DNA of 38,864 nucleotides from a virus. The notes below the pieces were generated by a model. That model did no database searches and was not told the DNA's origin. It saw only the letters and a list, made by a program, of their open reading frames with translations. Position numbers and translations under genes: made by a program. This document shows, piece by piece, positions 2,700 to 38,864 of this stretch. The DNA lies in IMG/VR virus record IMGVR_UViG_3300044515_000042, positions 1 through 38,864 of that record. One strand, 5' to 3'. How positions within the stretch are numbered: the first letter of the stretch is position 1; each line of letters opens with the position of its first letter.

Positions 2700-2727
2700 A
2701 AGGCCTCAAATCGAGGCCTTCTCTTTT
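2700..2727. terminator. convergent intrinsic terminator
   Basis: An 8-bp hairpin AAGGCCTC/GAGGCCTT (2700-2707/2713-2720) with a T-rich tail on the plus strand. It overlaps the stop codon of the minus-strand HNH-like gene, so it may also stop leftward transcription. Confidence 0.8.
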
Positions 2728-3176
2728 TCTAAATTACGGTCCATATAATCAGCAATAATTAAGTGCTCATCACGAGTGCCACAATTCTTAATCTGATTAG
2801 CGTAGAAAGAAATCCACTGAATGTTTCCGCGTTCGTATCCTCGGTCTGGATCAACACGATCAACCGACGCCATTCCTTTATTGTCGGGACGATCTTCTTT
2901 GTTTAATGTGACTGCCAAAACAATATCATTGCCAAACACTGCACATTTACCAGTCCAAATCGCTTCTAAATCCTCAATAGTCATTGTGAAGACAGTTCCA
3001 TCATCTTTCGCACGTTGACGAATACGGCGATGAATCCATTTAAGAGGATCGTGTTTGCATCCGTGTTTACGACGAACGGCTTCGGCAGCCTTATATTCAG
3101 GCGTAGATTGATGTTTACGTCTTGAGGCTAAAGCACCAGCTCTTCTTTCTTCAGGTGTGTCATATCGTTTACCCAT
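2706..3176 (-). CDS. HNH-like homing endonuclease family protein
   Basis: 156 aa from the ATG at 3176 (MGKRYDTPEERR). An upstream extension to 3311 is open but lacks a ribosome site and reads as low-quality sequence. A basic N-terminal region with Arg/Lys clusters precedes the nuclease-like core: TGKCAVFG (76-82), SVDRVD (104-109), RGYERGNI and FYANQIK (124-130). It is the most divergent of the three paralogues, with FYAN replacing WRAN. It is on the opposite strand to all its neighbours, as expected of an inserted mobile gene. The shared stop/terminator with the 2514 gene separates the two units. Confidence 0.7.
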   Translation of the reverse strand: MGKRYDTPEERRAGALASRRKHQSTPEYKAAEAVRRKHGCKHDPLKWIHRRIRQRAKDDGTVFTMTIEDLEAIWTGKCAVFGNDIVLAVTLNKEDRPDNKGMASVDRVDPDRGYERGNIQWISFYANQIKNCGTRDEHLIIADYMDRNLEKEKASI

Positions 3177-3258
3177 GCAGATATTTAGAAGAGTCAACAA
3201 ATATTTCGTGAAGTTTTGGTCGACTCTCATACATACCTCTATCAAAAGGGAGATTGAT

Positions 3259-3594
3259 ATGTTGAAAGAAAGAAAACCAAGACGAGCACGATATGAATTT
3301 GTTGGCCGCACAGAGCAGAGCTACATTGATCAAATGAAGGCGGAATATTTGTTAGCCTCACTTGAACGTGGAAATGTTCGTGGGTTTAACAACTACATCG
3401 GAATCATTCAGGATTACGTTGACTGTTATCCCGATGCAGTAATCAGTAAGGACTGGAAGGAAATCTTGGAGTTGCCGTATACGCTGTTTAATGCAGCAGT
3501 TGGACGGTCAGTGAAAGATACGCCACCAATAGACAACACAGTTATCAAGTCAACAATAAATAGTTTTGACAGGGCTTATAAGAAGGGAGATTGA
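3259..3594 (+). CDS. hypothetical phage protein
   Basis: 112 aa from the ATG at 3259, chosen because AAAAGGGAG lies just upstream; the frame is open further back to 3157 but overlaps the divergent HNH-like gene. Basic N-terminus (MLKERKPRRARYEF), then mostly helical with aromatic residues; no known motif recognised. The leader GGGAGATTGATATG is repeated exactly before the next gene and nearly so before the 5352 gene. The stop overlaps the next gene's ribosome site, so the two are coupled. Confidence 0.7.
   Translation: MLKERKPRRARYEFVGRTEQSYIDQMKAEYLLASLERGNVRGFNNYIGIIQDYVDCYPDAVISKDWKEILELPYTLFNAAVGRSVKDTPPIDNTVIKSTINSFDRAYKKGD
3555..3562 (+). promoter_or_regulatory. NATAAATA element (AATAAATA)
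   Basis: AATAAATAG lies inside the 3' end of the preceding gene, 33 nt before the ATG at 3596. The spacing equals that of the intergenic copies. No palindrome is obvious. Confidence 0.4.
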
Positions 3595-9646: not shown

Positions 9647-10277
9647 AGTAAGACCCCCCCTCTAAGGGATTAAGATAAGAGAAGAGTATAAGACTTAGAG
9701 AGGGGGGAAATACCCCCCCCTCTAATGCAGACAGTTTGAATAGATAAAACCCCCCTCTCTAAGGGATGGTGTTCACCGGTGGGAGCTTAAGCTCCGAAAT
9801 GGACTTCCGGTTGGAATTTAGGTGCACATAGAAGCGCTACGCGCAACAAGACGAGCCAGGAAGGACCTGGCATCGCTTGTTCATCCACCTTCGGTAAAGA
9901 CATCAAGTGGGCAGGAGATAGGTTCTTCCTGGCACCAGTAACTTCTATCAATCCCATAAACGAGCACCTACCAACAAATGAAGAACTCACATTTGTCCAT
10001 TCTTCGTCCACACAACAATCTCACATCGTTATCCACAGTGAGCTATGTGACGTTTCCGTTCTATCACCCTATTAGAACAACAATCGCCTAACGATCACAT
10101 ACTTTCTCTATTTCAAAGTACCAAATCGTTTCCATTGCGCATCCAACAATCACCTGACAATCAAAACGGTTTCTCTTCCGACCGTTGAGCATTGTGGAAG
10201 AATTGTTTCGTTACCAGCACCGTTTACCGAGCCGTAACGAAGTGAAGGCGAGGGCACCATACCTCACTCTCCCCTTT
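9647..10277. other. gene-free region with C-rich repeats and a DnaA box (origin candidate)
   Basis: About 630 bp with no convincing gene. The left part holds three or four related C-tract repeats (C6-8 then TCTAA or TCTCTAAGGGA at about 9653, 9713 and 9751) and one complementary G-tract (about 9699). The right part is unusually rich in CAATC/CACC strings and contains a perfect DnaA box TTATCCACA at 10029-10037. The combination of repeats, a DnaA box and loss of coding capacity suggests a replication origin; this is inference. Confidence 0.4.
10029..10037 (+). other. perfect DnaA box
   Basis: TTATCCACA matches the strict bacterial DnaA box consensus. It lies in the gene-free stretch between two transcription units. 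Confidence 0.5.
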
Positions 10278-10317
10278 GTTGAACGTTGTGTCCATAAATA
10301 GCATCACAACGCTTAAC
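10278..10317 (+). promoter_or_regulatory. NATAAATA element in a 14-nt loop between 13-nt arms
   Basis: CATAAATAG is centred in a 14-nt loop (10291-10304). The arms GTTGAACGTTGTG (10278-10290) and CACAACGCTTAAC (10305-10317) pair at 11 of 13 positions. A closely related copy stands before the Dps-like gene (11647-11687), also with a 14-nt loop. Confidence 0.6.
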
Positions 10318-10328
10318 AAGGAATATCA

Positions 10329-11630
10329 ATGGCAGCACCTAATTACTTTCTCACATGGCCTACGCCAGGATCAGTTCCAGAACGAGGCTATACGCAACTA
10401 ACTGCGAATGACCTTCCATTTTCCTTCCAGGCTGCCAAAGGACGTAACAAGGTTGGTGCTCGTATTCCAACACACAGTAGCGCGAACACCTTTGCTACCG
10501 CAGGTAGCAACTTCACGTGGTCGCTTGCACTCGCGCTACCAGCAGATGTACAGGCCGTCCAGCTTGTCACCTACAACGGATCAGCGTCAGCTACGACAGC
10601 TGTTACAGGTATCGCATCGAGTGGTGCAACCAAGACTGAACTATTGAATAACGCGGGGGTGTGGAAGGCAGCTACTTGGGCTGGTGCCTCTAGCCACACG
10701 ATTCCGGCAGGGTCGGCATTCCTACCGAGTGTCGTGCTTTCCGATTGGATTACCCTGATCAAGACAGGCAGCTACACAGCTACCAATGGTTTGCAGATGA
10801 CGATGTTCTACGCGCGGATCATGACTCCACTGGCGAATGCCAACGTAGGCATCGGCGGTTTCTCAACCACGATTCCCGCCTGGGCGACGATCTCTGATGA
10901 TCAAATATTTGCGTGGCGCTTCCAGTCTGGTGACTTCGTGACGACTCCAACCGGAATGACTGGTTCAAGTGATCCGTCAGCGTGCCCGCTCATTGGTCTT
11001 CGATACATGACACAGACGCAAACGGTAGTCGATGTTGCTTTCTTTGGTGATTCAATCACTGAAGGCTTCGGATGCACACCACGTGGCTTTGCATGGCCAC
11101 ACCAGACGTCGGTCGCATCAATGCTAAATGGGCAGTTGATGGGCGCTAATAACTTAGGTCTACCAGGCGCGACTACTACTCAGGTACTTGCCTCAGCGAA
11201 TGCGCTCCTACCAATATACAAGCCACAGATCGCGTTCTTCCCGATGTTTAGCCCAAACGACTCTGCGGCTCCGGCGGAAAATACTTTTGAGACGTGGCTA
11301 AGCAATGCAGGACAGTTCATCTACCTATGTAACCGTAATGGCACGCTACCTGTACTCTGGAACGGCGTTCCTTGGACAACTGATGGAACGAACACCACAG
11401 CACAGTTCAATCTAGCGCAGGACGCCCTACGTCAGCAGGCAACCATAGTTGGTCAGACATTTGGTACGCAGTTCTGTAACTTTGATCCAGCGCTCGGCAA
11501 TGGAGCCCACCCTGAACTATGGAATAGCGCACTACTCACCTCAGATGGTAAGCATCCAAACAACGCCGGTAATGTGCTCATGATTCAGCCTGCACTAGCG
11601 GCTATCCAAACATTATTGCCGGTCCTGTAG
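10329..11630 (+). CDS. SGNH/GDSL-type esterase
   Basis: 433 aa. The N-terminal half (1-230) is beta-rich with Ala/Ser/Thr-rich strands, like a phage structural or carbohydrate-binding domain. The C-terminal half is an SGNH hydrolase: block I FFGDSIT with nucleophile Ser242, an Asn/Gly pair in NNLGLPG (274-280), block III FSPND (Asn310) and block V DGKHP (Asp406, His409). Likely it removes acyl groups from a surface polysaccharide, either as a virion enzyme or for lysogenic conversion. Hand counts give about 52% GC here, against about 40% in the coat gene, and the leader is shared with the next gene, suggesting a separately acquired module. No signal peptide. Confidence 0.85.
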   Translation: MAAPNYFLTWPTPGSVPERGYTQLTANDLPFSFQAAKGRNKVGARIPTHSSANTFATAGSNFTWSLALALPADVQAVQLVTYNGSASATTAVTGIASSGATKTELLNNAGVWKAATWAGASSHTIPAGSAFLPSVVLSDWITLIKTGSYTATNGLQMTMFYARIMTPLANANVGIGGFSTTIPAWATISDDQIFAWRFQSGDFVTTPTGMTGSSDPSACPLIGLRYMTQTQTVVDVAFFGDSITEGFGCTPRGFAWPHQTSVASMLNGQLMGANNLGLPGATTTQVLASANALLPIYKPQIAFFPMFSPNDSAAPAENTFETWLSNAGQFIYLCNRNGTLPVLWNGVPWTTDGTNTTAQFNLAQDALRQQATIVGQTFGTQFCNFDPALGNGAHPELWNSALLTSDGKHPNNAGNVLMIQPALAAIQTLLPVL

Positions 11631-11646
11631 CGCCTTAATGCTCGGT

Positions 11647-11687
11647 GTTGAACGTTGTGGTCATATAAATACATCACCACATTCAAC
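11647..11687 (+). promoter_or_regulatory. exact TATAAATA in a 14-nt loop of a palindrome
   Basis: TATAAATA (11664-11671) lies in a 14-nt loop between GTTGAA-cgt-TGTGGT and ACCACA-TTCAAC. The whole leader, including AACAAGGAATA before the ATG, is a diverged duplicate of the leader at 10278-10328. Confidence 0.6.
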
Positions 11688-11698
11688 AAGGAATAAAA

Positions 11699-12166
11699 AT
11701 GACTCAGGAAAGCAATCCAACATTAGGTGACAAAGACATCGTTAATCTTCTTCAAGTTTTGATGGCATCAATCGATATGATTTGCATTAAGACTCGTGGA
11801 TACACCTATAACGTACTTGGTGAGAGCTTCTACGAATACCATTCCTTCCTAAATCTCACCATTGAGAACCTACACAAACAAAGCTACAACGTTGCAGAAC
11901 GTATCCGTAGTCTTGATGCAACAGCCAATTTCAGTCTCGATAACATCGAAACATTCTCTGTCGTTAAGGATGCCACAGCAGTTGTTTCCGATTTCTCAAA
12001 GATGGTTAAGGTACTTTTATCTGATTATCAAACAATCAGCGATCTTGCTCGTGACACATTCAAAGCAGCTGGTGAAGTGGCAGATGCAGGAACAATCGCT
12101 TGTGTTACTTCCATTGCGTTGAAGTTTGAACACTTCGCGTGGGAATTGAAGGCGATGGCTTCGTAA
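11699..12166 (+). CDS. Dps-like (ferritin superfamily) protein with degenerate ferroxidase site
   Basis: 155 aa, four-helix pattern, the usual Dps length. Residues 31-73 line up with the Dps signature: KTRGYTYNVLGESFYEYH against K-T-H-x-F-H-W-N-V-x-G-x-x-F-x-x-x-H, then NVAERIRSLD against DEIAERIRALG. The C-terminus (DAGTIACVTSIALKFEHFAWEL) matches the last Dps helix. Of the four usual ferroxidase ligands, His48 and Glu67 remain, but the first His is Thr36 and the Asp is Tyr63. DNA protection or a scaffolding role without iron oxidation is therefore possible. Start ATG behind AAGGAA. Head genes follow downstream after a gap. Confidence 0.8.
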   Translation: MTQESNPTLGDKDIVNLLQVLMASIDMICIKTRGYTYNVLGESFYEYHSFLNLTIENLHKQSYNVAERIRSLDATANFSLDNIETFSVVKDATAVVSDFSKMVKVLLSDYQTISDLARDTFKAAGEVADAGTIACVTSIALKFEHFAWELKAMAS

Positions 12167-12639
12167 TTGGTTCGCCTGAAATAGGGACAAAAAAAGCGCT
12201 ATATAGACTCATTTCACGCCAAATTCGCGGCCGAAAGGACGATTTCCGACAGTTTCTTTGTGACCTTATGGACGATTCTGCAGGTTTTATCGTCCAACAC
12301 CCACAATCCTGCACATTTCTGCACCTTTTTAGAAGGTCAACACAATCTCAAACAATAAAAACAGTCAACACCCAACTGCTTACTTTGTGGGGATTGTTCC
12401 AACCATCACGACGCTAACTAACCATCCTCATATTGATTGAACCATTCGACATCGTGGTATCCGTGCAGGAATACCGTGTTTATTGTTGGGTGATACAGTT
12501 TTTGAACCGTTGAGATCGTCGTGTTCCTGCACGATTTCCACGGTCAGGCCACTGCTAACTCCACGATTGTTGTGGAGATTTAGTTCTGCACTTTTTGGTT
12601 CTTTTCGTTGATGGTCTCCCCAGGAATAAGGAGATCGTT
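12167..12639. other. gene-free region with TGCAC repeats and inverted repeats
   Basis: About 470 bp with only implausible frames. It has a 7-bp hairpin GGACGAT/ATCGTCC (12270-12276/12289-12295). A 10-bp inverted repeat CGTGCAGGAA/TTCCTGCACG (12462-12471/12524-12533) sits within a longer imperfect one of about 22 bp. Further CTGCAC copies lie near 12308, 12318 and 12586. It may be a protein-binding control region, an origin or a packaging (cos/pac) site next to the terminase genes. Confidence 0.4.
12462..12533. repeat. 10-bp inverted repeat around TTCCTGCACG
   Basis: Arms at 12462-12471 and 12524-12533, extendable to about 22 bp with a few mismatches, 52 bp apart. Candidate binding sites for terminase small subunit or a regulator. 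Confidence 0.55.
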
Positions 12640-13256: not shown

Positions 13257-13847
13257 ATGGCAATGAAGAGTACAGGCACCGATTCAATAACTGGTGAATC
13301 GAGAAATAAAACAGTCGAAGAGATCAAAGACCTTCGCAACGACACAATCTCACAAGCGATGAACCCTCGACACGTTCTAATCCCCAACAACAGTTGGAAA
13401 GATCAGAAGAAGCTGTGGGCTAAAGCAAACGATAACCAGCGCAAAGATTATCTCTACGGAATGATCCTGCACGATGGCGTCTGTGCAGATACAAAGCGTG
13501 GGCTTGCATTGATTGCAAAGTTCTTCGCGATAAAGGTTAAAGACCTAGATGACTACCAAGAAGTCATTGAGATGGCAGATGCGGCACGTGTCCTAAAGGT
13601 TAACCGTAATCAGTTGCGTACATTCCTTGGAAGAGACGATCAACCAATGGGCAAGTTCTTTGTTGGTAAGCAGTATGCATATCAGGTTGGTGAGCCTAAG
13701 CACGAAGGTGTTGAGAGCATTGATGATGGCAGCGATATAACAATTAAGGTTATGACGCCTGAGAATAGTTCAGTCACACAGGCTGACGATGACAGTCCAG
13801 TGTTGGCAGAGGAATCAACACCGATATTATTCAATCACCTCAACTAA
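13257..13847 (+). CDS. terS: terminase small subunit (putative)
   Basis: 196 aa, directly before and overlapping TerL (TAATG). N-terminal basic and helical; a middle region (about 88-125) includes ALIAKFFAIKVKDLDDYQEV and AARVLKVNRNQLRTFLG, which reads as a helix-turn-helix. The C-terminus is acidic and Ser/Thr-rich. The assignment as DNA-recognition subunit rests on position, size and the HTH-like region; sequence similarity was not recognised directly. Confidence 0.65.
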   Translation: MAMKSTGTDSITGESRNKTVEEIKDLRNDTISQAMNPRHVLIPNNSWKDQKKLWAKANDNQRKDYLYGMILHDGVCADTKRGLALIAKFFAIKVKDLDDYQEVIEMADAARVLKVNRNQLRTFLGRDDQPMGKFFVGKQYAYQVGEPKHEGVESIDDGSDITIKVMTPENSSVTQADDDSPVLAEESTPILFNHLN

Positions 13848-15118
13848 TGGACTTGCACTGGAACCTATTTAAACACCAGGCAGAGTTCGTATTAGACATC
13901 AAGACACGCAACCTTGCACTTATTGGTGGCTACGGAAGTGGTAAGACAGAAGCCCTTGTAGCAAAGCTTATATCCCTTTGTATGTTGAATGCGGGATATG
14001 AAGGCATTGCACTATCCCCAACGTACCGTATGGCTGTGCAGGTGCTTATCCCACGATTGGAAGAGGCATTGCGAGCGAGAGGCATACCATTCACTTGGTT
14101 CAAGGCGGATATGTACTTCGCCATAAAGGTGAAGAACAAGACAACAAAGCTTCACATCCTTGCAGCAGAGACATTCAAACGTGCGGCTGGTATTAACGCT
14201 GCATTCTTTGGTGTGGATGAAGCTGACCTACTTGATACAGACACTTTCCTTGACGCTTGGCGAATGTTGTCCAGCCGTCTTCGTAAAGGCAAAGTCTATC
14301 AAGGCGTCGCAGTATCAACACCAGAAGGCTTTAAGGGCTGTTATAGGTTTTGGTACGAAGAAGTATGCCGTGAACCGAAGCTCAATAAAGACCGTCGGAT
14401 CATCAAGGCCAGCACATACGACAATTTCACACTACCAAAAGAGTACATCGAGGGGTTAGAGGCACAGTATCCCGAACATCTTATCCGTGCTTATCTTCAC
14501 GGTGACTTTGTTAACTTGGCTGGCAAACCAGTCTATTGGAAGTTTGACAAAGAACTAAACAACACCACCTTAACGATTGCCGACTTTCCCAACCACGTCA
14601 TCCACATCGGTCAGGACTTCAACAAGAACATCAATGCTGGTGTTGTCCACGTCGTAAAGAACAATAAGTGCTATGCGATTGACGAGTTCTATGGTGACAA
14701 AGATACCCAACAATTAGCCGACAGTATCAAAGCTCGTTATCCCTGGCACTTCAAGAACAATGCCATACGATTCTATCCCGATGCCTCAGGCTTCGAAGGT
14801 ATTCAGAACCTTAAACGTAACTTTCCAGAGTTCGGTCCTGATGGTAAGTCAAATTTCCGCTATGGGCAGGCGAATCCAAAGGTTGAGAAACGTGTTGCAG
14901 CTGTTAACGAGAAGCTAAAGCCAACGAACGGACAGCCTGAGTCGTTTGTTAACCATCAGAAATGTCCCGAACTATGGAAAGGATTGACACAACAAACCTA
15001 CGATAAGAACGAAGAACCAGACAAGAAAAGTGGTATCGATCACGCTCTCGACGGTCATGGATATTGCATTTTTAAGATTTGGCCATTAACAGGGAATGTC
15101 GTTGCTTCCATTAGTTGA
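13847..15118 (+). CDS. terL: terminase large subunit (ATPase and nuclease)
   Basis: 423 aa. Walker A GGYGSGKT (27-34), Walker B with catalytic Glu in FFGVDEAD (120-127), and the RNase H-like nuclease domain with acidic residues in IGQDFN (Asp257), AIDEFY (about 279-280) and FYPDASG (Asp312). It powers DNA translocation into the procapsid and cuts the concatemer. Length is usual for TerL of siphoviruses. Its ATG overlaps the terS stop. Cos versus headful packaging cannot be decided here. Confidence 0.96.
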   Translation: MDLHWNLFKHQAEFVLDIKTRNLALIGGYGSGKTEALVAKLISLCMLNAGYEGIALSPTYRMAVQVLIPRLEEALRARGIPFTWFKADMYFAIKVKNKTTKLHILAAETFKRAAGINAAFFGVDEADLLDTDTFLDAWRMLSSRLRKGKVYQGVAVSTPEGFKGCYRFWYEEVCREPKLNKDRRIIKASTYDNFTLPKEYIEGLEAQYPEHLIRAYLHGDFVNLAGKPVYWKFDKELNNTTLTIADFPNHVIHIGQDFNKNINAGVVHVVKNNKCYAIDEFYGDKDTQQLADSIKARYPWHFKNNAIRFYPDASGFEGIQNLKRNFPEFGPDGKSNFRYGQANPKVEKRVAAVNEKLKPTNGQPESFVNHQKCPELWKGLTQQTYDKNEEPDKKSGIDHALDGHGYCIFKIWPLTGNVVASIS

Positions 15119-17459: not shown

Positions 17460-18623
17460 ATGACAGCAACAGCAGGACAAAATACTTTAACGGGTCTATT
17501 CCCAGTTATGTACGAAGCAATGGACGTAATCCCACGTGAATTGGTAGGAGCAATCCAAGCCGTTCAGATGGATCCAAGCGCACAAATGGCAGGTTTGAAC
17601 CAGACAGTTCGTTCACCAATCGCGCCACCAGCAACAATGGTTGACGTCGTACCAGGCGTTATCAACAGCAACGGAACAGGTTCAGTAATTGGATTTAAGG
17701 ACGTTGTAATTTCAAACTCAAAGAACTCACCAATCCTATGGTCTGGTGAAGAACAGTTGCTTTTGAAGGAAGAGTATCGTGGTATCGTAAAGGACCAGTT
17801 CAGCCAAGCGTTCCGTACTCTTGGTAACGCAATTGAACAGTCAGTTGTAAACGCAGCAGCCCTTAACGGTTCACGTTGCGTAGGTACAGCAGGCACAACA
17901 CCATTTGGTAATATTAACGACCTTAGCGACTTCGCAAACGTAGTTAAGGTACTTGACGACCTTGGTGCACCAGCATCAGATCGTTCACTTATCCTTGGTA
18001 CATCTGCCGCAGCTAACATCCGTGGTAAGCAGGCAAGCTTGTTCCGTGTAAACGAAGCAGGTTCAGCTGAACTTTTGCGTACAGGTGCATTGGGTTCAGT
18101 AGAAGGTCTTGCTGTCCGTACATCAGGTCAGATCCGTAATGGTCTTGGTCAGAACAAGGTAGCAGTAGGTACAGGTTCAGGATATGTTCTTTCAGGTAAC
18201 TTATCAGCTGGTGCAACAACCATCGCTGTAGGAACTGGCACAGGAACAATTCTTGCCGGTGACGTTGTAACAATTGATGGCAATCAATACATCGCACAGA
18301 CAGCACTTGCAGCTGGCTCATTCACAATTGCTTCTCCTGGTTTATTCCAGTCAGGCAGCACTGGTGACACAGTCGTTGTAAATGCATCAAGCGTAAAGAA
18401 CGTCTTCTTGCAGAAGGCAGGTTTCTTGCTTGCAACTCGCGTACCAGCGATGCCAATGGGTGGCGACTCAGCTTCTGACCTAACAGTCATTACTGATCCA
18501 GTCACAGGATTGTCATTCCAAGTAGCGTTGTACAAGCAGTACCGTCAGATCACAATCGATATCGCAATCTCTTGGGGTACATCAGTACTTCGTAGCGATT
18601 ACGTAGGTTGTTTGCTTGGCTAA
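17460..18623 (+). CDS. major capsid protein (P22 coat-like)
   Basis: 387 aa. The start (LFPVMYEAMDVIPRELVGAI, then QTVRSPIAPPATMVDVVPG) matches the P22 gp5-like coat group, with the E/N-arm, FRTLGNAIEQSVVNAAALNGSR helix and a conserved C-terminal LSFQVALYKQYRQITIDIAISWG strand set. A Gly/Ala/Thr-rich insert (about 240-310) may be the accessory I-domain. It forms the icosahedral shell by the HK97 fold. Codons are strongly biased to ACA and GCA. It is followed by a terminator, as expected of a highly expressed single gene. Confidence 0.9.
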   Translation: MTATAGQNTLTGLFPVMYEAMDVIPRELVGAIQAVQMDPSAQMAGLNQTVRSPIAPPATMVDVVPGVINSNGTGSVIGFKDVVISNSKNSPILWSGEEQLLLKEEYRGIVKDQFSQAFRTLGNAIEQSVVNAAALNGSRCVGTAGTTPFGNINDLSDFANVVKVLDDLGAPASDRSLILGTSAAANIRGKQASLFRVNEAGSAELLRTGALGSVEGLAVRTSGQIRNGLGQNKVAVGTGSGYVLSGNLSAGATTIAVGTGTGTILAGDVVTIDGNQYIAQTALAAGSFTIASPGLFQSGSTGDTVVVNASSVKNVFLQKAGFLLATRVPAMPMGGDSASDLTVITDPVTGLSFQVALYKQYRQITIDIAISWGTSVLRSDYVGCLLG

Positions 18624-35918: not shown

Positions 35919-36449
35919 ATGGACAACACAACACCTAACAATTGGGACACCAAGACGATGATTGAAATTCTTCTTCAAAATCAAAATACAAATCGTGAAG
36001 AGGCACGGGCTGACACTAAAGAAGCACGTGAGGAAAACCAACGTCTTGCAAAAGAGACCAATGCAAAGATTGATCTTATGGCATCTACACTCAACACACA
36101 GATTGCTAACGTCTTGAGTACGCTTAACATGCACGTGGCGGATGATGCAAAGAACTTCAAAGAGCAGACTAAAAATGCATCTGATAACTTTCAGATGTTG
36201 AGTGATCGAATCACTACTAAGGAATCAGCAGACTCAGCAACTGATAAAGTGAAGGAGAAGGGGTTCGGTCGTGTGGTTGGTCTTGCGGGCGCTGTCTGTG
36301 CAATGTTGACAGTCTTAATTATGGCTTACCACTATTTCATTCAAGTGCCTCAACACGAGGCGGATATGGAATTACAAAAGGCTCAAGCAGCATTGTCAGA
36401 ACGACAGCATCAGGCTCCAGTTCAAGTTCAACCTGTCCCAGCGAGTTAA
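35919..36449 (+). CDS. coiled-coil membrane protein
   Basis: 176 aa. Residues 1-120 are hydrophilic and coiled-coil-prone (NREEARADTKEAREENQRLAKE). One transmembrane segment lies at about 124-146 (VVGLAGAVCAMLTVLIMAYHYF), then a Gln/Pro-rich tail. Placed after the tail genes it may act in lysis, superinfection exclusion or DNA entry. It meets the minus-strand gene tail to tail: the two stop codons overlap within TTAA. Confidence 0.7.
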   Translation: MDNTTPNNWDTKTMIEILLQNQNTNREEARADTKEAREENQRLAKETNAKIDLMASTLNTQIANVLSTLNMHVADDAKNFKEQTKNASDNFQMLSDRITTKESADSATDKVKEKGFGRVVGLAGAVCAMLTVLIMAYHYFIQVPQHEADMELQKAQAALSERQHQAPVQVQPVPAS

Positions 36450-36946
36450 ATAACGCTTCCAGCTGAATACTTGGCGGATGTGAGTGAACCACTTGCAGAG
36501 ATTCGTGCTGACTTGCCAGGAGTGAAACGACGGATGTTATGGCTATCAACAATTCCGATATAGCTGACCAAGTTCAATTCCATTGCGACATTGACATCAT
36601 CGATTGAGAAGAACTCAGCCAATTTCTCAATGCCAGGATGGTCGTGATAGATAGCAACAACCTTCGCATTCTTAGGATATGAGGCACGAACGTTGAAGTG
36701 TCCGTACTCAGATGAACCGACTGGCTCCGTATAGAAGAACTTCGAACCGATTTGAACGATCACGCCTGCCATCTCGTTTGAATTCGTAGTAACAGAATCA
36801 AATATTTCTGTCAGTGCAGCTCGTGCAGCATCGTCGGCAGAGTTGTATTCAACCGTTTCTTTGATTGTTGAAAGTTCGGTTGCATTACAAATTGTTGCAG
36901 TGCAGCAAATTAAGGCGAAAAAAAGGCTGGTTAAAATCTTGGTCAT
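36446..36946 (-). CDS. exported DUF4329-like protein
   Basis: 166 aa from the ATG at 36946 behind GGAGGA; a GTG four codons earlier is less likely. An N-terminal signal peptide (TKILTSLFFALICCTATICNA) is followed by AARAALTEIFDSVTTNSNEMAGVIVQIGSKFFYTEP, then AIYHDHPGIEKLAEFFSIDD. The A-A-x-A-L ... E-x-x-G-x-I ... F-Y-T-x-P and H-D-H-P features fit DUF4329, a JAB/deaminase-like family often found as toxin or host-interaction domains. It is transcribed against the tail genes, as a lysogenic conversion (moron) gene would be. Confidence 0.7.
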   Translation of the reverse strand: MTKILTSLFFALICCTATICNATELSTIKETVEYNSADDAARAALTEIFDSVTTNSNEMAGVIVQIGSKFFYTEPVGSSEYGHFNVRASYPKNAKVVAIYHDHPGIEKLAEFFSIDDVNVAMELNLVSYIGIVDSHNIRRFTPGKSARISASGSLTSAKYSAGSVI

Positions 36947-36961
36947 ATCGTCCTCCACGTT

Positions 36962-37341: not shown

Positions 37342-37417
37342 GCCGTCGTAGCTCAATTGGTAGAGCAGAACTTTTGTAAAGTTAAGGTTACGGGTTCGAT
37401 TCCTGTCGACGGCACCA
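37342..37417 (+). tRNA. phage-encoded tRNA-Thr(TGT)
   Basis: 76 nt. Acceptor GCCGTCG/CGACGGC perfect, D-arm GCTC/GAGC, anticodon stem GAACT/AGTTA (one G-A mismatch at 27-43), anticodon loop TTTGTAA with anticodon TGT, T-stem ACGGG/CCTGT, loop TTCGATT, encoded CCA. It reads ACA codons, the same as the host tRNA destroyed by the integration, but its sequence outside the anticodon loop differs. It lies 192 bp from the attR core. It therefore can replace the lost tRNA in the lysogen. Confidence 0.95.
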
Positions 37418-37427
37418 ACTCACTCGC

Positions 37428-37442
37428 TAGTGCAACGGTTTT
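37428..37442 (+). repeat. 15-bp copy of the host tRNA-Thr 5' half
   Basis: TAGTGCAACGGTTTT is identical to the D-arm/anticodon-stem part of the host tRNA-Thr 5' half on the minus strand (complement of 37614-37628). It lies right after the phage tRNA, outside any cloverleaf. It may be a remnant of tRNA capture or an integrase-related site. Confidence 0.5.
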
Positions 37443-37508
37443 TCAATCGTTCGTGTGAGCAGTTTTTGAGTTATCTCAATCTTCCTATTGAACCTGGTTT
37501 TCTGCAGG

Positions 37509-37531
37509 GATTCTAATAGGGTAATAGAATC
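37509..37531. repeat. 7-bp inverted repeat near attR
   Basis: GATTCTA (37509-37515) and TAGAATC (37525-37531), directly next to the longer inverted repeat. Possible arm-type site for integrase or a directionality factor. Confidence 0.5.
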
Positions 37532-37567
37532 AGTAAGTTACGATTTTGGTTTGGTCGTAACTTACTG
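37531..37567. repeat. perfect 13-bp inverted repeat near attR
   Basis: CAGTAAGTTACGA (37531-37543) and TCGTAACTTACTG (37555-37567), 11-nt loop, 43 bp from the attR core. No T-run follows on either strand, so it is probably a protein-binding site in the attP arm rather than a terminator. Confidence 0.7.
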
Positions 37568-37609
37568 AGAAATGTGGCTTGTTTGGTAGCGATTTACCGG
37601 TGTTCTGAA

Positions 37610-37616
37610 TTACAAA
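37610..37616. other. attR: attR core (TTACAAA)
   Basis: Identical to the attL core at 143-149. To its left phage sequence does not continue the tRNA; to its right the host tRNA 5' half begins. Recombination of the two cores restores an intact tRNA-Thr gene. Confidence 0.88.
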
Positions 37617-37646
37617 ACCGTTGCACTACCACTGTGCTAAGCCGGC
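37610..37646 (-). tRNA. 5' half of split host tRNA-Thr(TGT)
   Basis: Minus strand: acceptor GCCGGCT, TA, D-arm GCAC/GTGC with loop AGTGGTA, A, anticodon 5' stem ACGGT and loop TTTGTAA. The next phage bases (TTCAG) cannot pair with ACGGT, so no functional tRNA is made. It pairs perfectly with the 3' half at 105-149 (acceptor 7/7, anticodon stem 5/5). Confidence 0.93.
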
Positions 37647-37662
37647 GCGGAGCCCAGGACCT

Positions 37663-37668
37663 ATTATA
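37663..37668 (-). promoter_or_regulatory. -10 box of the host tRNA-Thr promoter
   Basis: On the minus strand a perfect TATAAT is followed by a GC-rich stretch as in stable-RNA promoters. The -35 is weak. In the lysogen it would transcribe the tRNA 5' half and run into the right end of the prophage. Confidence 0.6.
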
Positions 37669-37697
37669 GCGGACCCCGTTTGCCGGCACTTCAGGTC

Positions 37698-38159
37698 TTA
37701 TGCAGCGGCCGGCCGCCGGGTCATTTTCATTAGAAGATGATCGAGCGAAACGGTGCCCGCGCCGGCGATCGCAAGCCACAGAAACAGCGCAAGATATTCA
37801 AATTCGTCGAACCCCAGCAGGGTCTCGAGCGAATCGACATCTCCCCACTTCGCGGCCTTGATCGCAACGATCATCGTGACGCCCAGGGCTCCCGCCGATA
37901 TCCGGGTGAGCAATCCCAACAGGAGGAGCAGCCCTCCAATGAATTCTATTCCCGACGTCAGGGGTGTGAAAAAGTGCGGGAAGGGGATGCCCCAGCCGAT
38001 GAAATTCTCAGTCACCTGCGGAAGGTTGTTGAGCTTGCCCCAACCGCTCAATAGAAATACCCAGCCCACCGTGATTCGGGCAAATAGCGGCGCCAGCCAC
38101 ATCAAATGCTGAGCGACGCGCTCGGGCCATGCAATCAGCCAATCGATCAATAGCCGCAT
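37698..38159 (-). CDS. DoxX-family membrane protein (host)
   Basis: 153 aa with four hydrophobic helices (about 24-40, 62-82, 88-100, 121-138). ARITVGWVFLLSGWGKLNN and a Phe-rich IGWGIPFPHFFTPLTSGIEFIGGLLLLLGL are typical of DoxX/SURF4-like proteins, small inner-membrane proteins linked to quinone or redox stress functions. GC-rich host codon use, clearly unlike the prophage. ATG at 38159 behind GGGAG. Its exact role is not known. Confidence 0.88.
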   Translation of the reverse strand: MRLLIDWLIAWPERVAQHLMWLAPLFARITVGWVFLLSGWGKLNNLPQVTENFIGWGIPFPHFFTPLTSGIEFIGGLLLLLGLLTRISAGALGVTMIVAIKAAKWGDVDSLETLLGFDEFEYLALFLWLAIAGAGTVSLDHLLMKMTRRPAAA

Positions 38160-38255
38160 TTTTATCTCCCAAGCTAGTTGAGAAGGCAGACCTGGCCGAA
38201 GGGTGATTTATTACAGATCATTCCTTCGCGGCACTCGGATTGTCATCCACGGAAA

Positions 38256-38864
38256 TCACTGGGCGGCCGTCACCGCCGGTTTCGCGCCCAGCAGATCCAC
38301 TGCTGCTTGGTAGAGTTTGGCGCGTACCAAGAATCTCTCATTGGCGCGCGTGATGTAGCGGACGGCGATTTCGACTCCACCGACCACGGGTTTTACATTG
38401 ACGCCGGGCGTGCCGGAAAACACTTTGCCGCGCTGCGCCGGCACTGCGCGCTGCCACTCTTGCTCTGCTTGCTGGGCACTTTCGTGGGTCGCCTCGACCA
38501 CTTGCTTGGTGATGGCATCGACAATGGGATAAGGATCGCGCCCAACGGGCACGACCACTTGCAACTCATCCCACAGCCATTGCCCCGATGTCGAAAAATT
38601 GAAGTAATGGCCTTCGATGGCAAAGCTGTTGGTGAACGTCACGCGCCGGCCCGTCGGGTGCCCGGAATCGCTCCAATTGCCGGTCTCCAGCAGCACCGTG
38701 TGAAACATGCCGAGTTCCGTGACCTCGCCGCTGACGCCGTTGATTTCCACCCAGTCGCCGAGCCGAATGCCATTGCGGCCCATCAGTACCAGCCAGCCGA
38801 AGAACGCGACGATGAAGTCTTTGAGCGCAACGGTGAGCCCCGCGCCGACGATGCCGATGGTGGT
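38256..38864 (-). CDS. MscS-type mechanosensitive channel, N-terminus beyond the window (host)
   Basis: The frame is open to the window edge, upstream of the internal ATG at 38783, adding GLTVALKDFIVAFFGWLVLM before RLGDWVEINGVSGEV. This is the MscS pore-lining TM3 and following beta domain (G-D-W-V-E-I-x-G-x-x-G-x-V). The cytoplasmic domain follows to the stop at 38256. MscS-family channels release solutes on osmotic downshift; members vary in size and gating. Partial here: the N-terminal part lies outside the window. Confidence 0.9.
   Translation of the reverse strand, partial: TTIGIVGAGLTVALKDFIVAFFGWLVLMGRNGIRLGDWVEINGVSGEVTELGMFHTVLLETGNWSDSGHPTGRRVTFTNSFAIEGHYFNFSTSGQWLWDELQVVVPVGRDPYPIVDAITKQVVEATHESAQQAEQEWQRAVPAQRGKVFSGTPGVNVKPVVGGVEIAVRYITRANERFLVRAKLYQAAVDLLGAKPAVTAAQ

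Follow-up and report, generated by a model that had tools for sequence, protein, structure and literature searches.

A phage-encoded Dps homologue in which half of the ferroxidase ligands are replaced

Introduction

What use might a temperate phage have for a Dps protein whose iron site appears to have been taken apart? The question is raised by a gene of IMG/VR record IMGVR_UViG_3300044515_000042, positions 1-38,864 of which are considered here (hereafter, the window). The ferroxidase site of Dps spans the interface of a dimer, with two histidines contributed by one subunit and an aspartate and a glutamate by the other, and E. coli Dps binds DNA through a basic tail. The intersubunit location of the site is described in PMC13319912, according to which all Dps have ferroxidase centres, and in PMC3613396, which reports that Dps without ferroxidase activity exist in bacteria. 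Phage-encoded Dps have also been discussed (PMC8008677, PMC6669764), and an antioxidant and DNA-protecting role in support of the host has been proposed for the Dps of gut phages (PMC8008677). As a family, phage Dps are already known; what would be new, judging by the residues encoded here, is a phage Dps with half of its ferroxidase ligands replaced.

Results

A full-length Dps homologue

The gene that raises the question is the following:

11699-12166, plus strand: dps-like gene, 155 amino acids, ATG start and TAA stop, predicted Dps fold, ligand columns Thr36, His48, Tyr63 and Glu67

Its product matches Pfam Ferritin (PF00210; E = 6e-11, 42.9 bits against a cut-off of 24.5), the profile of PHROG 3636 (E = 4.8e-18, residues 13-154 on profile positions 7-147 of 149) and the sequence of PDB 3iq1 (E = 4.5e-12, residues 11-152); NCBIfam Dps equivalogs also match it, with scores under their cut-offs. 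These matches bear out the earlier note, which had recognised a Dps-like chain here, and on their strength the protein is judged homologous to Dps far beyond chance.

That note had also proposed a check of the predicted fold. An AF2 monomer model based on a 63-sequence alignment (pLDDT 93.9, pTM 0.88; it supersedes a poor model from 4 sequences, pLDDT 64.6) is ferritin-like: helices at residues 9-38, 44-71, 80-86, 99-126 and 130-154 form the four-helix bundle of Dps with its short BC-loop helix, and a non-ferritin fold was not seen. The structural matches listed from the PDB were Dps-family proteins, and a Dps family protein of Vibrio cholerae (3iq1; 26% identity, rmsd 1.2 A) was the best match in both sequence and structure.

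The codon use and GC content of dps resemble those of the phage's own genes. The highest identity of its product to any Dps compared is 31%, scans with peptide patterns across viral and genome collections returned no close homologues, and GenBank phages showed no DNA similarity to the dps region. Because the protein sits on a long branch with weak support in the tree, we name no donor for the gene.

Two of four ferroxidase ligands are changed

In alignments, the ferroxidase columns of the window protein read Thr36-His48-Tyr63-Glu67, as opposed to the usual His-His-Asp-Glu (H-H-D-E), so that the two replacements and two retentions read from the DNA by the earlier note both stand. The codons concerned are:

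11804-11806, plus strand: Thr36 codon ACC, replacing the first ferroxidase histidine
11840-11842, plus strand: His48 codon, retained ferroxidase histidine
11885-11887, plus strand: Tyr63 codon TAC, replacing the ferroxidase aspartate
11897-11899, plus strand: Glu67 codon, retained ferroxidase glutamate

To pass from a histidine codon (CAY) to ACC takes two base changes, and from an aspartate codon (GAY) to TAC takes one; since this makes three changes in two codons, a single sequencing error behind both substitutions was ruled out. The tryptophan adjoining the ligand site is replaced as well (Tyr37).

Thr36, Tyr37 and Tyr63 each occur in none of the 61 other proteins of a 62-sequence viral comparison, where His48 and Glu67 are retained; because most of this set was retrieved by a pattern fixing His36, Trp37 and His48, only its aspartate and glutamate columns are unbiased. 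The window protein is likewise alone with Thr36, Tyr37 and Tyr63 in the 63-row alignment, in which it retains N38, V39, G41, F44, H48, A66, E67, R70 and W148 and deviates at several further conserved columns (e.g., 55, 77, 143 and 145). The substitutions are concentrated at the metal site, although other conserved columns also deviate.

Sequences picked without regard to their ligands give the same picture. The ligand alignment held 16 GenBank phage Dps, 2 viral-contig Dps, 7 plasmid-borne bacterial Dps and five PDB chains: the other phage proteins were H-H-D-E in every case (18/18), and the sole deviation among the cellular references was NpDps4 (H-H-H-E). A pattern scan of viral contigs, informative for aspartate and glutamate only since its pattern forces both histidines, added 80 Dps loci, of which one was cut by a contig end and the rest, all complete, were H-H-D-E (79/79). 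Neither the collections nor the literature searched yielded another viral Dps with replaced ligands. Given that the intersubunit His-His-Asp-Glu set that defines Dps is incomplete in the window protein, we treat it as a Dps homologue and advise against classing it as a functional mini-ferritin. The residues of the three-fold pore had been considered as an additional sign of iron inactivity and were dropped, as other Dps (e.g., 3iq1) also have no acidic residue there.

Four comparisons show how far the protein departs from known systems. With PHROG 3636 (annotated 'DNA binding protein', and including proteins of Salmonella phage SE131, Bacteroides phage BS162P1 and Escherichia phage SU10), it has family, size and Dps fold in common; however, the 18 members examined are all H-H-D-E, whereas the window protein is T-H-Y-E and about 26% identical. 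The V. cholerae protein, unlike that of the window, has a complete HHDE set and the tryptophan. NpDps4 of Nostoc punctiforme (PDB 5hjh, 5i4j), which has a His-type ferroxidase, resembles the window protein in its altered ligand set (PMC6675082), but there the aspartate has become a histidine, still a metal ligand, whereas the window protein has a tyrosine in that place and has lost the first histidine too. With the ferroxidase-less Dps of bacteria it shares a Dps fold and, by prediction, the lack of iron oxidation, the difference being that those proteins are bacterial.

An acidic protein with short tails

The earlier note suggested that a Dps without iron oxidation could still bind DNA, and the properties of the chain make this less likely. 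Its calculated pI is 4.8; the first 14 residues, with the N-tail MTQESNPTLGDKDI, include one lysine and three acidic residues; only some eight residues precede helix A; and the C-terminus is the end of helix D. Upstream of the ATG the frame stays open for just ten codons (165 amino acids in all). A basic DNA-binding tail, which is a non-universal trait of Dps, is missing from the window protein, and the low pI, the short acidic N-tail and the want of upstream room together make DNA binding through such a tail unlikely.

A variable slot upstream of the packaging genes

The genome is temperate and siphophage-like, and its features of use here are:

826-1974: tyrosine integrase
10329-11630, plus strand: GDSL/SGNH esterase, which shares the cargo slot with dps and has a leader like that of dps (ATAAATA at 10294)
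13257-13847, plus strand: gene immediately ahead of the large terminase and conserved in relatives, its position being the sole sign of a small terminase
13847-15118, plus strand: terminase large subunit, the query used to find relatives
17460-18623: major head protein

A tape measure and a J-like tail protein are also encoded in the window. The temperate lifestyle that had been supposed from the DNA is borne out by the integrase and by a chromosome-like right end (DoxX/MscS DNA of higher GC, 37.7-38.8 kb), and the gene upstream of dps that had been called an esterase is indeed a GDSL esterase. At 37342-38864, on DNA of higher GC, come a tRNA-Thr and then DoxX and MscS-like genes, and this segment is probably host chromosome at the prophage end. 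A search with the MscS flank gave no close taxon, a genome collection of 84,980 species contained no relatives of the large terminase (TerL), viral contigs contained none of the esterase, and gene 13257-13847 had no PHROG match.

The terminase search recovered four related contigs (66-91% identity), and by tblastn Dps is absent from all four, which are fragments. DNA similarity to the two closest relatives starts at about 12.46-12.5 kb, past the dps gene. The slot holds other genes in L006, which has a DUF4329/JAB-domain protein homologous to that at 36446-36958 of the window, and in L005, whose genes there have no Pfam matches. The region of the esterase and dps is thus a variable slot, ahead of the packaging genes, into which different cargo is swapped. 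The DUF4329/JAB-domain protein, which has a signal-peptide-like N-terminus, is encoded at the right end of the window (36446-36958, minus strand) and in the terminase-proximal slot of L006 (182-709); its two different sites indicate that cargo genes change places.

Several other features of the window were noted. Endonuclease VII/HNH-type genes (212-820 and 2706-3311, both on the minus strand) flank the integrase and the genes next to it. Repeated C- and G-rich stretches resembling ATCCCTTAGAGAGGGGGGT occur at 9653-9767, where the minus strand has terminator-like stems. A stretch of 473 nt without an assigned gene (12167-12639) separates dps from the small ORFs that precede the terminase; it contains an inverted repeat (12453-12474/12521-12542) and has no Rfam match.

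The dps leader resembles those of the late genes

The start of dps is preceded by a leader with the first three parts below, and the last line gives the TAAATA elements across the window:

11645-11689, plus strand: imperfect inverted repeat surrounding TATAAATA
11664-11671, plus strand: TATAAATA element, T4-late-promoter-like, a putative promoter
11688-11693, plus strand: ribosome site AAGGAA
10294, 11664, 13213, 15132, 16737, 17417, 18688, 20405, 20987, 22771 and 32233: TAAATA elements of the window, ahead of most late genes

The TATAAATA element resembles the late promoter of T4 and, in the manner of T4-type late promoters, lies 20-50 nt before the start of dps and recurs ahead of late genes. 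[AC]TAAATA is present in 9/13 late intergenic gaps, when 0.3 would be expected under a Markov model, and the late region has 14 copies on its coding strand versus one on the opposite strand. The esterase is preceded by CATAAATA, whose left arm is nearly identical to that of the dps leader. Many of the TAAATA elements stand within or immediately before an inverted repeat specific to the gene.

The element is also conserved among related phages, standing ahead of the portal-position gene in each of the five phages, before gene 13257 in 4/4 and before gene 16811 in 3/3; that of the head gene occurs in the window only, among the related phages compared. The element is likewise present at the cargo genes in the corresponding slot of L005 and L006. 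Among ten ORFs scanned in the first 10 kb of the record, which may be incomplete, none was recognised as a gp55-type sigma factor, and so the promoter function of the element is one that we infer. That dps shares this element with the late genes argues that it would be expressed together with them.

Dps domains among head and packaging genes of other phages

The earlier note considered a Dps gene between an esterase and the packaging genes to be unusual, a view that does not hold up: PHROG 3636 is a known family, phage Dps are common (tblastn queries with two Dps proteins from phage contigs hit 47 and 34 GenBank phage records), and in many environmental phages Dps is found next to or within head and packaging genes, so that a terminase-adjacent position is not odd. 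Seven contigs with a T4-like late region (L043, L060, L080, L085, L099, L104 and L121) have dps exactly between the small- and large-terminase positions, the large terminase being confirmed by Pfam in 4/7 and the small one assigned by position and mutual similarity only. In L043 (3015-5486) an intact dps between the terminase positions nearly overlaps the large terminase gene, and the other six contigs are alike in this.

Judging functions by position, dps lies ahead of scaffold- and head-like genes in L012 and L013, and in L012 it follows a portal-like gene. Elsewhere the domains share a single frame: Dps with a prohead protease (Peptidase_S78) in L074 (2828-4891), L095 (717-2024), L105 (306-2651) and L047 (1-1917), and Dps with a portal domain in L054 (6307-8979). 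The Dps fold also turns up in BFVD entries named 'Prohead protease'. All of these head- or packaging-linked Dps retain the iron ligands. In the literature searched we found no paper on Dps domains in phage head or packaging genes. For phage SU10, PMC4281155 reports 35.8% coverage of its Dps-domain protein in a phage preparation made without gradient purification. The idea that some phage Dps act in the head or in packaging deserves to be tested.

Discussion

We consider the window protein to be a Dps variant without a canonical ferroxidase, i.e., a late-made, cage-forming accessory protein that would act through its outer surface or cavity, and we assign this reading a probability of roughly 0.5. 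The protein would keep the four-helix bundle and short BC helix and have lost the canonical ferroxidase centre: at each intersubunit site, His48 and Glu67 would remain, with a threonine and a tyrosine where the other histidine and the aspartate belong. It is probably made late from its own phage-type leader, alongside the head and tail proteins, and probably assembles into a Dps-like cage lacking iron oxidation at the canonical site. Such a cage would serve late infection in an accessory capacity and may touch the head or packaging machinery. Cage assembly and loss of ferroxidase activity are what we infer, the predicted monomer bearing on the fold, and any exact role would be a guess. If the protein has neither iron chemistry nor a DNA-binding tail, the remaining option, favoured with modest confidence, is that it binds proteins or plays a structural part in late infection. 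Against this reading, the long branch and the deviation of conserved columns other than the ligands also fit relaxed constraint, and the head- and packaging-linked Dps of other phages, all of which keep the iron site, are uninformative about a Dps that lacks its ligands. We nevertheless rank it as more likely than an altered tyrosine metal site, decay or a poison subunit.

The strongest of these competitors, though in our judgement an improbable one, is that the metal site is altered and not lost, with His48 and Glu67 joining Tyr63, Tyr37 or Thr36 to bind iron or another metal in a different chemistry. The strict retention of two ligands while their partners changed would fit, as would the variability of Dps ligand sets (e.g., HHHE in NpDps4; PMC6675082); however, threonine makes a poor ligand at position 36, and T-H-Y-E was found in no relative through which conservation of the new set could be shown.

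We regard as somewhat less probable that constraint has been relaxed and that a cargo gene is decaying, its iron site having gone first. The long branch, the several other deviating columns and the variability of the slot, which holds different genes in relatives, are all expected under decay, but the frame is full-length, the ribosome site and leader are intact, the predicted fold is confident, and the structural core is kept while the changes are concentrated at the metal site.

A more doubtful proposal, raised in the earlier note, is that the protein blocks host Dps by mixing with it, every mixed interface site being then short of one ligand. The alignments, combined with the known geometry of the site (PMC3613396, PMC13319912), indicate that one ligand would be lost from each half-site, such that a mixed site of either kind would be defective; but identity to any Dps compared is at most 31%, which makes mixing with host Dps unlikely. 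Least credible is an ordinary antioxidant and DNA-protecting Dps that aids the host during infection and tolerates its substitutions: membership of PHROG 3636 and the role proposed for gut phage Dps (PMC8008677) favour it, but the ligand loss speaks against iron oxidation, and the acidic chain without a basic tail against DNA binding.

Returning to the cage without a canonical ferroxidase, a bolder version is that a mini-ferritin has been recast as a non-enzymatic cage or surface protein of late infection, linked to packaging or to the head, with its iron site dismantled, and is the extreme case of a wider and unreported use of Dps in phage heads; this we put forward as speculation that is unlikely to hold in full. 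The assumption has been that phages borrow Dps as an antioxidant enzyme. A phage Dps in which the iron site appears to be gone, with the fold and a late leader kept, suggests that some phages may have a use for the cage itself, and together with the Dps domains found among head and packaging genes it poses a testable question: Is Dps, in some phages, a component of the virion or of the packaging machinery?
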